A DNA stretch of 35,262 bases from an uncultured SAR86 cluster bacterium (GTDB lineage: Bacteria > Pseudomonadota > Gammaproteobacteria > Magnimaribacterales > AG-339-G14): assembly GCA_902528485.1 (NCBI GenBank), contig CABZTA010000008.1, forward strand, positions 1 through 35,262, in the 5' to 3' direction. A model generated the notes under the pieces. The model had not been told where the DNA came from and searched no databases. It saw only the letters and a program-made list of their open reading frames with translations. Shown here piece by piece: positions 2,530 to 32,559 of the stretch (the stretch's first letter is position 1; each line of letters begins with the position of its first letter). A program made the position numbers and the translations under genes.

Positions 2530-3906
2530 ATGAAACCAATTATTACGATATTGGGCAAACCAAATGTAGGAAAATCTTCCCTCTTTAATGCTTTATTAGG
2601 AAATAATGAATCTCTTGTTGCCAACATTGAAGGCCTTACAAGAGACAAACAATACGCAAATCTAATTATAAATAACAGAAGTTATGTACTCGTTGATACT
2701 GGAGGAATAGGCCTCACAGAAAATGAGATTGATTTTGCTGTAACAAAGTCATCGTTAAGTTCTTTTGAAGAATCTGATTTAATTATTGCTTTATTTGACT
2801 CATCTACCAATTTATCAAAAATAGACGCAGAGATCCTGAATTACATAAGAAAAGCATCTGTTCCTTTTATTCCAGTTCTAAATAAATGTGATCTAAAAGA
2901 AAGTGAAAACAATAAAGATCTTTATTACAAGGAAGGATTTCAAAATATTATTGAAATCTCAGTCACAAAAAAACAAGGAATAAGATCTCTTGAGAAAAAA
3001 ATAGAGGAAATTTTTCCTTCTGAAGAGCAAGAAGATGAAGCCAGTCAAATTAATTTGAGAGTCGGAATAATTGGGAAACCAAATGCCGGAAAATCAACTT
3101 TTTTTAACGAACTACTTCAAGCAGAAAGATCTTTAGTAGATAAATCCGCTGGTACAACAAGAGATTCAATCTCACATAAGTTAGACATAAATAAGGCTGA
3201 AATTATTCTTACCGACACAGCGGGAATCAAAAGAAAAAGTAAATTGAATGATCAAATAGATAATTTGATCACAAGGGAATCAATAACTACCTTGAAAAAT
3301 GTTGATGGTGTTGTATTTCTTATAGACGTTCAGAATTCCATATCAGATCAAGATCTTCAAATTATCTCCCTATGTCTAACTTCAGGAAAGCCAATCGTCA
3401 TAGGCTTAAATAAAAGTGAGAATCTTAGTAAAACAGATAAATTAATCTTTAAAAAAGAAATTAACAGAAGACTATCTTTTGCTAATCATTTAGAAAGTAA
3501 ATTTATTTCCGCAAAAAAAAATATAGGAACAAAAGCTTTAGTTAGAGGCTTAATCAAGATAATAAAAAACTCCAGAAACAAAATATCAAAAAAAGAATTA
3601 AATAATATTCTAGAAAGAATTGTAGAAAAAAATCCGCCACCAATTTCAGGCAGATTTAGACCAAACCTCAAATTTGTCCAGTTGTTATCGAATAGACCTT
3701 TCACCATTTCAATTCATGGAAATAAACTAAAAGATATAAGTAATTCCTACACGAAATACATTGAAAAACAATTCAGAAAAGCTCTTGATTTAAAAGGTGT
3801 TCCAATCAAAATTTCCTATAAGACTGACGATAATCCTTTTAAGGAAAAAAAGAACAAGTTGACAGAAAGACAATTAAAAAAGAGGGCAAGAATAAGAAGG
3901 CGTTGA
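2530..3906 (+). CDS. der: Ribosome-associated GTPase Der (EngA)
   Basis: Two tandem G domains: GKPNVGKSS and GKPNAGKST, DTGG and DTAG, NKCD; C-terminal KH-like domain. Confidence 0.97.
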   Translation: MKPIITILGKPNVGKSSLFNALLGNNESLVANIEGLTRDKQYANLIINNRSYVLVDTGGIGLTENEIDFAVTKSSLSSFEESDLIIALFDSSTNLSKIDAEILNYIRKASVPFIPVLNKCDLKESENNKDLYYKEGFQNIIEISVTKKQGIRSLEKKIEEIFPSEEQEDEASQINLRVGIIGKPNAGKSTFFNELLQAERSLVDKSAGTTRDSISHKLDINKAEIILTDTAGIKRKSKLNDQIDNLITRESITTLKNVDGVVFLIDVQNSISDQDLQIISLCLTSGKPIVIGLNKSENLSKTDKLIFKKEINRRLSFANHLESKFISAKKNIGTKALVRGLIKIIKNSRNKISKKELNNILERIVEKNPPPISGRFRPNLKFVQLLSNRPFTISIHGNKLKDISNSYTKYIEKQFRKALDLKGVPIKISYKTDDNPFKEKKNKLTERQLKKRARIRRR

Positions 3907-7240: not shown

Positions 7241-8398
7241 TTGAACATTCACGAATATCAATCAAAACAGATTTTCAAAGAGTACGGACTTCCAGTACCA
7301 AATTTTTTAACTGCAAATACAACCGAAGAGGTTTTAGCTTCTGCAAAGGAAATCTCAGATACAAATTGGGTTGTTAAAGCTCAAGTTCATGCTGGGGGAA
7401 GAGGAAAAGCAGGTGGAGTGAAAGTAACGGATAACTTGAGAGAAGTTGAAGAGTTTGCAGATAAATGGATAAACAATAAGTTGGTAACTTACCAGACAGA
7501 TGATCAGGGTCAGCCAGTTTCTTGTATTTTAGTAGAGGAGTGTACTGAGATAAAAGAAGAATTTTATCTTGGAGCAGTAATAGATAGATCAACAAGATCC
7601 CTTGCAATCATGGCTTCTCCTGAGGGAGGCATGGATATTGAGAAAGTAGCAGAAGATCATCCCGAAAAAATATTTAAAGTCTTTCTTAAATCTCCATCAG
7701 TAGGAACTGAAGATCATTTACCTCTTGCAGAAGGTCTTGGATTATCAGAAGAACAAACAATAGAATTCAAAGATATTTTCAGCAACTTAGTAAAACTTTT
7801 TTTTGAAAAAGATCTGTCTTTGGTTGAGATAAACCCTCTAGTTCTAAATGTATCAGGTAATTTAGTATGCTTGGATGGAAAAATTAATATCGATTCTAAT
7901 GCTCTGTTTAGACAAGATGAAATTCTAGAATTAAGAGATATTTCTCAAGAGGAAGAAAAGGAGTTAAGAGCTTCTGATTGGGATTTAAACTATGTTTCTC
8001 TTGAAGGAAACATTGGTTGTTTAGTAAATGGAGCAGGCCTCGCAATGGCGACTATGGACATCATTAAATTAGCTGGAGGAGAGCCAGCAAATTTTTTAGA
8101 TGTTGGCGGTGCAGTTGATGAGAAAAGAGTTGCCGAGGCATTTAAAATCATCTTAGAAGATGAGAACGTAAAAGCAATATTAGTAAATATATTTGGCGGC
8201 ATTGTAAGGTGCGATGTGGTTGCTGAAGGAATAATTTCTGCTGTAGAGGGGGTGGGCGTAGATGTTCCGGTAGTCGTCAGGCTTAAAGGGAATAATTCTG
8301 AGATTGCAAAGGAAATGCTGGCTAAAACTAACTTAAATATCATAGCTGCAACTGAATTATCTGAAGCTGCAGCAAAAGCTGCAGAAATAGTTAAATGA
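7241..8398 (+). CDS. sucC: Succinyl-CoA ligase (ADP-forming) beta subunit; TTG start
   Basis: [52 protein letters not shown]; start codon TTG at 7241. Confidence 0.97.
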
Positions 8399-26865: not shown

Positions 26866-28518
<1,653 letters not shown>

Positions 28519-28534
28519 GTTTGAATAATGTTAT

Positions 28535-28567
28535 AAAAATAGGGGCCGAAAGCCCCTATTTTTTTTT
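28535..28567 (+). terminator. Rho-independent terminator after groEL
   Basis: AAAAATAGGGGC-CGAA-AGCCCCTATTTTTTTTT: strong GC stem, tetraloop-like loop, T tract. Confidence 0.93.
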
Positions 28568-28586: not shown

Positions 28587-28733
28587 ATGAAAATTTACTT
28601 ATTAACCTTATTTTTGCCAAATATTTTAATTGCACATTCTTTTGATAATATTTTTCATTTTCATTTGGAAAGTTTATCTATTTTATTCATTGCATTAATA
28701 TTATCTAAATTTCTTTGGAGGAAGATTAAATGA
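28587..28733 (+). CDS. 48-aa putative secreted/membrane mini-protein with HS...HFH motif, not in the supplied ORF list
   Basis: MKIYLLTLFLPNILIAHSFDNIFHFHLESLSILFIALILSKFLWRKIK; ATGA overlap with sodN; carries the sodN SD GGAGGA in its last codons. Confidence 0.6.
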   Translation: MKIYLLTLFLPNILIAHSFDNIFHFHLESLSILFIALILSKFLWRKIK

Positions 28734-29194
28734 AATTTGATCAAGTTCTCGCGCATTGCGATATCCCTTGCAAAATTTATGACCCAATTGTCATTCAAGT
28801 TGCAGCTTTGAGCGTAGTAAGAATCTTGGATATTATTAACGAGACATCTCATGAAGATGAAAATTCTAATATTTCTGAAATTTCAAGACTAACTGCTGAA
28901 AAGGAAAAACAAGCTAGCATTGTAAAAGATGAGGTAAGAATCATCTGGGGAGACTACTTTAAAGAGCCTCAGATTAAATCATTCCCTAAAATTCATGATT
29001 TAGTGCATCAGATTATGCTTCAAGGATCTAAGTGCAAACAGGGTATTGATAGAAAAAATGGAGAAATTTTGGTTGATTTAGTAAATGAATTCAGCGAAAT
29101 ATTCTGGGCAACAAAAGATATTAAAACCAAAAGCGTAAAGGCTCCATATCCTCCTTCATTAAATATGATATATCCAGATCTTGATAATGTCTGA
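28730..29194 (+). CDS. sodN: Nickel-dependent superoxide dismutase precursor
   Basis: MKFDQVLA|HCDIPCKIYDP Ni-hook at the predicted mature N-terminus; EVRIIWGDYFKEP and SEIFWATK motifs; sodX downstream. Confidence 0.93.
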   Translation: MKFDQVLAHCDIPCKIYDPIVIQVAALSVVRILDIINETSHEDENSNISEISRLTAEKEKQASIVKDEVRIIWGDYFKEPQIKSFPKIHDLVHQIMLQGSKCKQGIDRKNGEILVDLVNEFSEIFWATKDIKTKSVKAPYPPSLNMIYPDLDNV

Positions 29195-29459
29195 TATTTT
29201 TTCCGTCTCAGGAAATAGCATGAATCCAATCTTGAAGGATGGAGATAAAGTTATTTGCTTGAAAAATACTGATATTAATAAAGGAGACTTGGTTATCTTA
29301 GATGTTGAGCCCTACGGTAAGATTATTAAGAAAGTTAAATGGATAAATGAAAATGAATTAAGAGTAGAGGGAACAAATCCAAGATGCTATTCATCGTCCT
29401 GCGACTTCAATCATTCTTTATCATCAATAATTGGTAAGGTTGAGAAGATTCTTGTCTAG
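29181..29459 (+). CDS. sodX: NiSOD-maturation signal-peptidase-like protease (S24/S26 family); start could be 29187
   Basis: SVSGNSMNPILKDGDKVI (Ser), GKIIKKVKW (Lys region), overlaps sodN. Confidence 0.87.
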   Translation: MIMSDIFSVSGNSMNPILKDGDKVICLKNTDINKGDLVILDVEPYGKIIKKVKWINENELRVEGTNPRCYSSSCDFNHSLSSIIGKVEKILV

Positions 29460-29548: not shown

Positions 29549-30211
29549 ATGGAAGAATTATTTATTTACAATGTTCTCGTTAGATGGGGGCACGTCCTTT
29601 TTGGAATAGTTTGGATAGGATTACTTTACTATTTTAACTTCGTTCAAACAGAATACGTTAAAATTGCAGATTCAGATGCTAAAGCCGATGTAATGAAGAA
29701 ATTAGCACCTAATGCTTTATGGTGGTTCCGATGGGCAGCTTTCTTTACCTTTCTAACAGGATTAATCCTTCTTTACTTTCTCCAGGTCTTAGCTACTACT
29801 GAGATTATTCTCGGATCAATAATGGGAACTTTAATGATGCTAAACGTCTGGGGTATCATTTGGAGAAATCAAAAAATTGTTATCGGTCTTAAAGAAGGCG
29901 ATGCTGTTGCTGCTGGGGCAAAAGCAGGATTAGCCTCAAGAACAAATACTTTATTCTCCCTCCCGATGTTGTACTTTATGATTTCTTCTGCCCATAGTCC
30001 TGTGAAATCTTATTTCATGGGAACGCCCGCTACTGGCACTGATCCAGGATATTTAGGTCTGGATTTTCTAATCATTTGCTTAGTGATTGCCTTGATTGAA
30101 CTTAATGCAATTTATGGAAAGATGTATCCAGTTATAGCATCGGTAAGAAGTGTTATTACTTCAAGCCTTGCACTAACAGTAGTTTTCTCTGGCTTAGCTT
30201 TCTATATTTAA
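29549..30211 (+). CDS. PuuD-like (urate hydroxylase membrane domain) integral membrane protein, no cytochrome c domain
   Basis: RWGHVLFGIVWIGLLYYFNFVQ, PNALWWFRWAAFFT, NVWGIIWRNQK; ORF ends after the last TM, no CXXCH. Confidence 0.7.
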   Translation: MEELFIYNVLVRWGHVLFGIVWIGLLYYFNFVQTEYVKIADSDAKADVMKKLAPNALWWFRWAAFFTFLTGLILLYFLQVLATTEIILGSIMGTLMMLNVWGIIWRNQKIVIGLKEGDAVAAGAKAGLASRTNTLFSLPMLYFMISSAHSPVKSYFMGTPATGTDPGYLGLDFLIICLVIALIELNAIYGKMYPVIASVRSVITSSLALTVVFSGLAFYI

Positions 30212-31581: not shown

Positions 31582-32559
31582 ATGGTAACAATTAGATTAT
31601 CCAGAAGTGGGGCGAAGAAAAAACCCTTCTATCATTTCACCGTCACTGACTCTAGAAGGCCTAGAGACAGTGGTTATATTGAAAGGTTAGGTTTTTTCAA
31701 TCCATTCGCGTCCGGTCAAGAAATACGTCTCAAAATTGATCATGAGAGACTTGAATATTGGCTTAGCAAAGGTGCTCAAACCTCCGAGAAGGTAACTAAT
31801 CTTGTTAAGGAGTCAAAAATGACTCCTGATGAACTCTCTAAACTTCAGGATAAAAAGGAGTCAAGAAAGCAAAAGATTATTGCAAAAAAATCAGAACAAA
31901 ATAAAATTGACAACTCGTCAGATCAATCTAGCAATGAAAATTCAGACGTAGATGTTGCGGATGGAGAAAATTTAAATAAAGAGGAAGTAAATATGGAAGA
32001 TGATAAAAATATTATTGAAGAAAGCATAGAAGGAGTTGGTGAAACTGCTAAAGAAGCCATCGAAGGAGCTGCTGAAGTCGCTGGAGAAGGCGTAGAGGCT
32101 GTTGTTGAAACAGCTGGAGCTGCTGCTGAAGGGGTTGTCGATACTGCTAAGGAAGTTATCGAAGCAGTTGGTGAAACTGTTGATGCCGCTGTAGATGGAG
32201 TAACTGAAGTTGCAAGCGAAGTTGCTGAAGCAGCTAGCGAAGTTGCAGATGCTGTCATGGACGGTGATGTAAAGGGTGCCGTCAAGGAAGTAGCTGAAGG
32301 AGTTACCGAAGTTGCAGAAGCTGCAGTTGATGCTGTAACAGATACTGCATCAGAAGTAGTTGAAGGTGCTGCAGAAATAGTGGGTGAAGCAGCTGAGACA
32401 GTAGTTGATACCGCTAAAGAGGCTGTAGAAGGCGTCGGAGAAGTTGTTGAGGAAGCTGTTGAAGCGGTAAGCGAAACAGTTGAAGCTGCCGTTGAGGGAG
32501 TCTCAAACGTCGTTGAATCCATCAAGGATGCTGTAACAGGCGAAGACGACGAAAAATAA
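31582..32559 (+). CDS. rpsP: 30S ribosomal protein S16 with very long C-terminal Ala/Val/Glu-rich 11-mer repeat extension
   Basis: N-terminal ~85 aa [41 protein letters not shown] is S16; remainder is charged linker then repeats such as [22 protein letters not shown]; followed by rimM-trmD-rplS. Confidence 0.93.
32047..32540 (+). repeat. Degenerate coding repeat (about 33 nt / 11 aa) in the S16 extension
   Basis: Recurring GxxETVxAAVEGV / [11 protein letters not shown] / [12 protein letters not shown] units in the translated sequence. Confidence 0.75.

Follow-up and report, generated by a model that had tools for sequence, protein, structure and literature searches.

Our analyses indicate that a 48-codon open reading frame (ORF) immediately before sodN in a SAR86 genome is a real gene, and comparison with its relatives suggests that the product is probably a membrane-tethered, periplasm-facing nickel-capture protein that feeds uptake for the neighbouring enzyme. 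NiSOD, the sodN product, is among the main defences of ocean bacteria against superoxide and, to our knowledge, no nickel chaperone or dedicated nickel-supply factor is known for the proteobacterial enzyme. The short gene (hereafter the mini-gene) lies in the following setting in the window, by which we mean the whole 35,262-nucleotide stretch of DNA that was analysed:

26881–28518, + strand: groEL, the upstream neighbour, in an arrangement common to most SAR86 sodN loci
28535–28567, + strand: intrinsic terminator of groEL (stem 28535–28563, T-run to about 28567)
28587–28733, + strand: mini-protein gene, 48 codons plus stop
28717–28723, + strand: Shine-Dalgarno sequence of sodN, GGAGGAA, within the mini-gene
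28730–29194, + strand: sodN, encoding the NiSOD precursor, in which 8 pro-peptide residues (MKFDQVLA) precede HCDIPC
29187–29459 from ATG, + strand: sodX, maturation peptidase of the S24/S26 type (a TTG start at 29181 is possible)

The sequence bears out the initial annotation, which had placed a 48-aa ORF after the groEL terminator and in ATGA overlap with sodN. The mini-gene stop codon TGA (28731–28733) shares bases with the sodN ATG (28730–28732), sodN in turn overlaps sodX, and, with the terminator ending at about 28567, only about 20 nt separate it from the mini-gene ATG. Equivalents of the terminator are also present in loci L005, L008, L011, and L013. A promoter scan gave no + strand promoter upstream of the mini-gene; some SAR86 loci have TATAAT-like boxes immediately 5' of its ATG, which are no more than suggestive. 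An Rfam search and RNA folding around the sodN start gave nothing convincing. The sodN product is a bona fide NiSOD (Sod_Ni, E 2.3e-43; TIGR02753, 148 bits), whose closest counterpart in the named collection is that of SAR86 AG-337-I17 (95% identity), and the best NCBIfam model for sodX is sod_Ni_protease at 31.7 bits, which is under the model cut-off of 63. Two further genes were observed downstream in the window. A Urate_ox_N-like 220-aa membrane protein is encoded 3' of sodX (29549–30211), with equivalents after sodN-sodX in the SAR86 loci L008, L018, and L019, and a ribosomal protein S16 (31582–32559; S16 residues 8–68) is unusual in being extended at its C-terminus by about 250 residues that show helical similarity of the phasin/apolipoprotein type.

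A chance ORF is ruled out by the statistics of the slot before sodN, by co-occurrence with sodN in SAR86, and by dN/dS. Of 94 sodN loci, 71 have, within the 300 bp before that gene, a pattern consisting of a leader, an [AGS]H junction (His required), and a transmembrane (TM) helix, compared with 27 of 3777 windows of the same size elsewhere in those loci. As this first scan demanded His, it was repeated without that requirement, and a small ORF (40–115 aa) with signal peptide and TM helix then occupied the sodN slot of 70 of 89 distinct loci. The [AGS]H junction after the leader was present in 67 of these 70 slot ORFs vs. 37 of 277 comparable ORFs outside the slot in those loci, and two of the three slot ORFs without the junction His are HupE-like proteins entered at an internal start. 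The true slot frequency is higher than 70/89, because at least two loci that failed the thresholds carry clear members (L012, which is in alignment A1, and L065, read by eye). Conservation of the frame and its His residues upstream of sodN in relatives, on which the initial annotation had staked its proposal, was thus looked for and found.

Within 40 SAR86 genomes, a SAR86-type profile has convincing matches at sodN only, in 12 of the 14 genomes that carry sodN and in none of the 26 that do not. The other two sodN-carrying genomes (G018 and G020; loci L008 and L011), which are related to each other, have kept sodN and sodX, and a relic of the mini-gene (SHIEMIYFIFLLRK...) lies between the terminator and sodN. 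These relics, together with the roughly 15% of sodN loci that are without the mini-gene, imply that it is not strictly required. Close mini-gene pairs have dN/dS of about 0.1–0.5, and the window gene compared with its nearest relative (L007 vs. L015) has a value of 0.26 over 42 codons, with the sodN-proximal end removed; conservation of the SAR86 tail is not independent evidence, because WRKIK partly encodes the sodN Shine-Dalgarno sequence. Minis linked to sodN are also found beyond the SAR86 family, within its order (L102, AH EGNATFHYH) as well as in Marinomonas, Alteromonas, Pseudoalteromonas, Halieaceae, Porticoccaceae, and PS1-clade alphaproteobacteria. A plasmid search for annotated sodN operons yielded two distant matches. 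Other proteins were observed near sodN. In L099, about 50 bp upstream of sodN, the slot is occupied by a divergent protein with the junction SA-RPELETNLW, in which His1 is lost, and the adjacent NiSOD carries the hook HCDVPCG. In many sodN loci of the Marinomonas/Alteromonas type (viz. L033, L038, L071, L079, L089, L091, L100, and others) the next conserved gene upstream, about 100–350 bp from sodN, encodes a TPR-like cytosolic protein of about 150 aa (QANRAYSNHAFTDAVDLNRQAL...) without a Pfam match.

The mini-protein, split at its predicted junction, reads MKIYLLTLFLPNILIA then HSFDNIFHFHLESLSILFIALILSKFLWRKIK, and its parts are encoded as follows in the window:

28587–28634, + strand: predicted Sec signal peptide, residues 1–16 (MKIYLLTLFLPNILIA), with a hydrophobic core and Ala at −1, called on composition and motif only
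28635–28637, + strand: codon of His17, the predicted mature His1, invariant in A1
28656–28664, + strand: His24-Phe-His26 (mature H8-x-H10), second part of the putative metal site
28674–28718, + strand: single TM helix, about residues 30–44 (hydropathy, AlphaFold), followed by the basic tail RKIK

The peptide HSFDNIFHFHLES, with a free N-terminus, would carry the putative metal site. In the SAR86-type alignment A1, only His17 and His26 besides Met1 are invariant and Ala16 is nearly so, and alignment A2 has the invariant string A-H-x-G-H; the features that the initial annotation had read from one sequence, viz. a predicted mature N-terminal His, more His before one TM helix, a basic tail, and tight linkage to sodN, are supported. 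Among 63 distinct members the leader measures 16–24 residues, the residue at −1 is Ala in 60, at least two His precede the TM helix in 59, and a basic tail that would lie on the inner side is present in 62, its length varying widely. Lys and Arg occupy 3 of 812 positions in the outer loop vs. 293 of 1031 in the tail, a bias from which, by the positive-inside rule, an N-out/C-in topology after the predicted cleavage is expected, with the His cluster outside. AlphaFold models the window protein as two helices (2–18 and 22–47; pLDDT 75, pTM 0.39), with pLDDT of 82–88 over the last part of the second, and is uninformative on the metal site. We define the sodN-linked group by a small slot ORF, a leader, [AGS] followed by H, at least two His, one TM helix, and a basic tail, all of which the window protein possesses.

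No Pfam or NCBIfam family fits the mini-protein, a PDB profile search with the combined profile A5 found no relatives, and the literature on sodN operons, DUF6732, truncated HupE, and small membrane proteins (a survey mostly outside subscription journals) yielded no description of the family. A close known counterpart is HupE/UreJ (PF04955), with which the window protein shares a signal peptide ending in A followed by H and a His-containing N-terminus, and whose niche in hydrogenase, urease, and some sodN clusters is also that of the minis. However, HupE has six TM helices compared with one after the leader in the 48-aa window protein, which also lacks the HX5DH at the first TM helix that HupE has in common with two hydrogenase minis (L228 and L229). 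The window protein has no match to PF04955 at E <= 1, and three A2 members match it weakly (best E 0.0083). Full-length profile-profile comparison reached up to 93% probability, mainly from the leader and A-H, and was rejected as proof of homology; with the leader taken away, the scores drop to about those of shuffled sequences (fully so for A1), and homology with HupE can no longer be demonstrated. DUF6732 (PF20506) has the same small SP-AH-x-GH-TM architecture (SP, signal peptide) and is matched by 10 of 25 A2 members at E <= 0.1, but members scanned singly fall under its gathering score and the window protein does not match.

Three other systems resemble the mini-protein in function or setting. 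The Ang-1/Ang-2 "anglerase" domains likewise have a mature N-terminal His on the periplasmic face and are proposed to catch metal for a permease (PMC12537917), but they are larger and fused to a HupE_UreJ_2 permease, whereas the mini is encoded beside the enzyme as a stand-alone 48-aa ORF, and its one-helix product, separate from any permease, would present just about 13 residues. SodT, a UreH-family protein of marine cyanobacteria whose gene accompanies sodN-sodX, has been proposed as a nickel supplier for NiSOD (PMC4284471), yet it is a six-TM transporter of another architecture. The CutF/CopL/CzcI-like sensors are also small Sec-exported proteins with a metal-binding motif encoded upstream of a metalloenzyme (PMC9973294); unlike them, the mini has a TM anchor, sits up- or downstream of the enzyme gene, has no Cys and hence no CxxxC, and with its single Pro (position 11) has no Pro-rich stalling motif.

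Profile searches have also identified relatives of the mini-protein beside two other nickel enzymes. An HPGHDH-type profile gave three strong matches in 299 proteobacterial genomes, each at sodN, and its weak matches include two short SP-AH-x-GH-TM proteins directly downstream of ureG (L127 and L131). A HupE profile gave exactly two frames under 100 aa in 115 genomes, both in [NiFe]-hydrogenase maturation loci (L228 and L229) and both with the exact HupE-type HX5DH before one TM helix. Profile A5 gave seven short-frame matches outside its training set in 340 gammaproteobacterial genomes, and five of these seven, a small independent sample, are in nickel-enzyme operons (four hydrogenase, one urease); of the remaining two, L261 is at a contig edge and L247 has a context outside this count. 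The minis of the hydrogenase loci, six undescribed SP-AH-TM proteins of 56–77 aa, and those of the urease loci, which are of the SP-AH[PS]G-TM type, are located as follows:

L258, 4355–4567, + strand: hydrogenase mini, after hypD-hypE
L259, 8104–8319, + strand: hydrogenase mini, directly after the [NiFe]-hydrogenase large subunit
L260, about 7741–7914, + strand: hydrogenase mini, directly after the [NiFe]-hydrogenase large subunit
L262, 4462–4665, + strand: hydrogenase mini, directly after the [NiFe]-hydrogenase large subunit
L228, 4239–4442, + strand: hydrogenase mini, after a HycI-type protease
L229, 3975–4208, − strand: hydrogenase mini, between the large subunit and hypC
L127, 4951–5133, − strand: urease mini, directly downstream of ureG
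L131, 4879–5058, − strand: urease mini, directly downstream of ureG
L263, about 3349–3519, + strand: urease mini, directly upstream of ureD

The urease minis are rare: among 56 ureG loci, which include the selected L127 and L131, minis of this type occur in those two only, and HupE/UreJ proper follows ureG closely in two. Two alphaproteobacterial sodN loci have, in place of a mini, a multi-TM protein that is HupE/UreJ-like (L046:3494–3865, E 8.8e-5; L093, E 0.0025) and shortened to 124–151 aa, and in other bacteria HupE/UreJ and SodT permeases occupy sodN, urease, and hydrogenase clusters (PMC4284471). The architecture alone is no proof of nickel, because SP-AH-x-GH-TM proteins also occur outside nickel loci (L118, which is DUF6732-like, L119, and L120). 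Judged from their sequences, the one-helix N-terminal-His membrane proteins are a widespread, undescribed family, where "family" denotes a common architecture and a common genomic niche, since outside the leader and His the subfamilies are mostly no more, or hardly more, similar than shuffled sequences; the subfamilies may also have converged.

In the mechanism that we propose, the 48-residue precursor would be exported via Sec and lose its leader to signal peptidase I at the predicted site after Ala16, giving a 32-residue product anchored N-out/C-in by one helix. On the periplasmic face, His1 (with its free alpha-amine plus imidazole), Asp4, His8, and His10 would bind scarce Ni(II) by chelation and pass it on to a nickel permease of the inner membrane. 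From there it would reach NiSOD in the cytosol, which is encoded on the same mRNA and matured by SodX. In favour of this, a DUF4198 protein whose N-terminal His is exposed by signal-peptide removal binds nickel in vitro with a Kd of 18 nM (PMC12537917). The likeliest partner in SAR86 would be the HupE_UreJ_2 permease found in nearly all of its genomes: 36 of the 40 have a HupE_UreJ-like match, mostly in frames of about 320 aa, and NikM/CbiM and NicO transporters were found in 0 of 40. The one SAR86 permease scanned (L230:500–1456, about 318 aa) is a HupE_UreJ_2 (PF13795, E 5.6e-40) with SHEF after a hydrophobic leader, as in the anglerase-permeases (PMC12537917), and its N-terminal His domain resembles Ang-1. 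As HupE_UreJ_2 is not restricted to the sodN-carrying SAR86 genomes, we can only infer this partnership. The initial annotation had offered nickel delivery or NiSOD anchoring as a role, and it is the former that comparison strongly supports, because related minis occur in urease and [NiFe]-hydrogenase operons.

The choice of metal is the point on which the best-surviving alternative differs. In vitro, the affinity of N-terminal-His sites for Cu(II) is at least equal to that for Ni(II), and given the tight copper binding of such sites (CopC, LPMO) the mini-protein might be a periplasmic copper or zinc binder co-expressed with sodN in an oxidative-stress or metal-sparing response. Iron limitation does induce NiSOD in Alteromonas (PMC7190382), but linkage to three nickel-enzyme systems is unexpected for a copper or zinc protein, and we regard this explanation as unlikely.

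A second alternative is that the ORF acts in cis as a CutF-like metal-sensing leader, whose exported nascent peptide would sense periplasmic metal and set sodN translation by stalling or coupling, the finished mini-protein having no job. The ATGA overlap and the sodN Shine-Dalgarno sequence inside the ORF agree with this, as does the precedent of CutF, which controls cutO translation via a metal-binding exported nascent chain and whose relatives have short intergenic gaps (PMC9973294). Such a leader is nevertheless rather improbable here, because its defining motifs (CxxxC and a proline-rich C-terminus) are missing, no stem-loop hides the sodN Shine-Dalgarno sequence (shuffled sequences fold as well, z = 0.46), and the mini-gene does not in every case precede that of the enzyme, hydrogenase and urease minis often following the enzyme gene, which they cannot then lead. 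In many relatives, moreover, the mini stop lies tens of nt before sodN, and the TM helix and basic tail are conserved.

The anchoring role named above, in which the mini-protein, as a subunit or partner, would use its basic cytosolic tail to fix or arrange NiSOD or SodX at the membrane, finds some favour in the overlap with sodN and in the prevalence of that tail (62/63). It is, however, very improbable, because the best conserved part is the outside His segment and not the length-variable tail; the His motif is predicted to be periplasmic, whereas a cytosolic location is expected for NiSOD, and minis of this architecture also serve urease and hydrogenase loci, where there is no NiSOD or SodX. 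A minimal permease, i.e. a HupE reduced to its first helix and oligomerising into a nickel channel, has in its favour the HX5DH of the hydrogenase minis and the presence in the same slots of HupE-like proteins whose length is intermediate (L046, L093, L231), but is scarcely credible for a SAR86 form that lacks HX5DH, has almost no polar residues in its helix, and gives an A1 mature-only profile at shuffle level against HupE.

Under the preferred reading of periplasmic nickel capture, a conserved third operon gene, easily overlooked for its shortness, is a direct candidate for the nickel-supply factor of NiSOD. That urease and hydrogenase operons share the architecture suggests a general component for nickel handling, unnamed by Pfam and NCBIfam, and the one-helix N-terminal-His proteins may be a general proteobacterial nickel-acquisition accessory, dedicated to nickel enzymes in separate versions, mostly for NiSOD and, in other bacteria, for urease and [NiFe]-hydrogenase. 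If so, the minis would be the missing metal-supply component of proteobacterial NiSOD operons, and one chemistry, that of a His1 exposed by proteolysis, would serve both to capture nickel outside and to put it to work inside.
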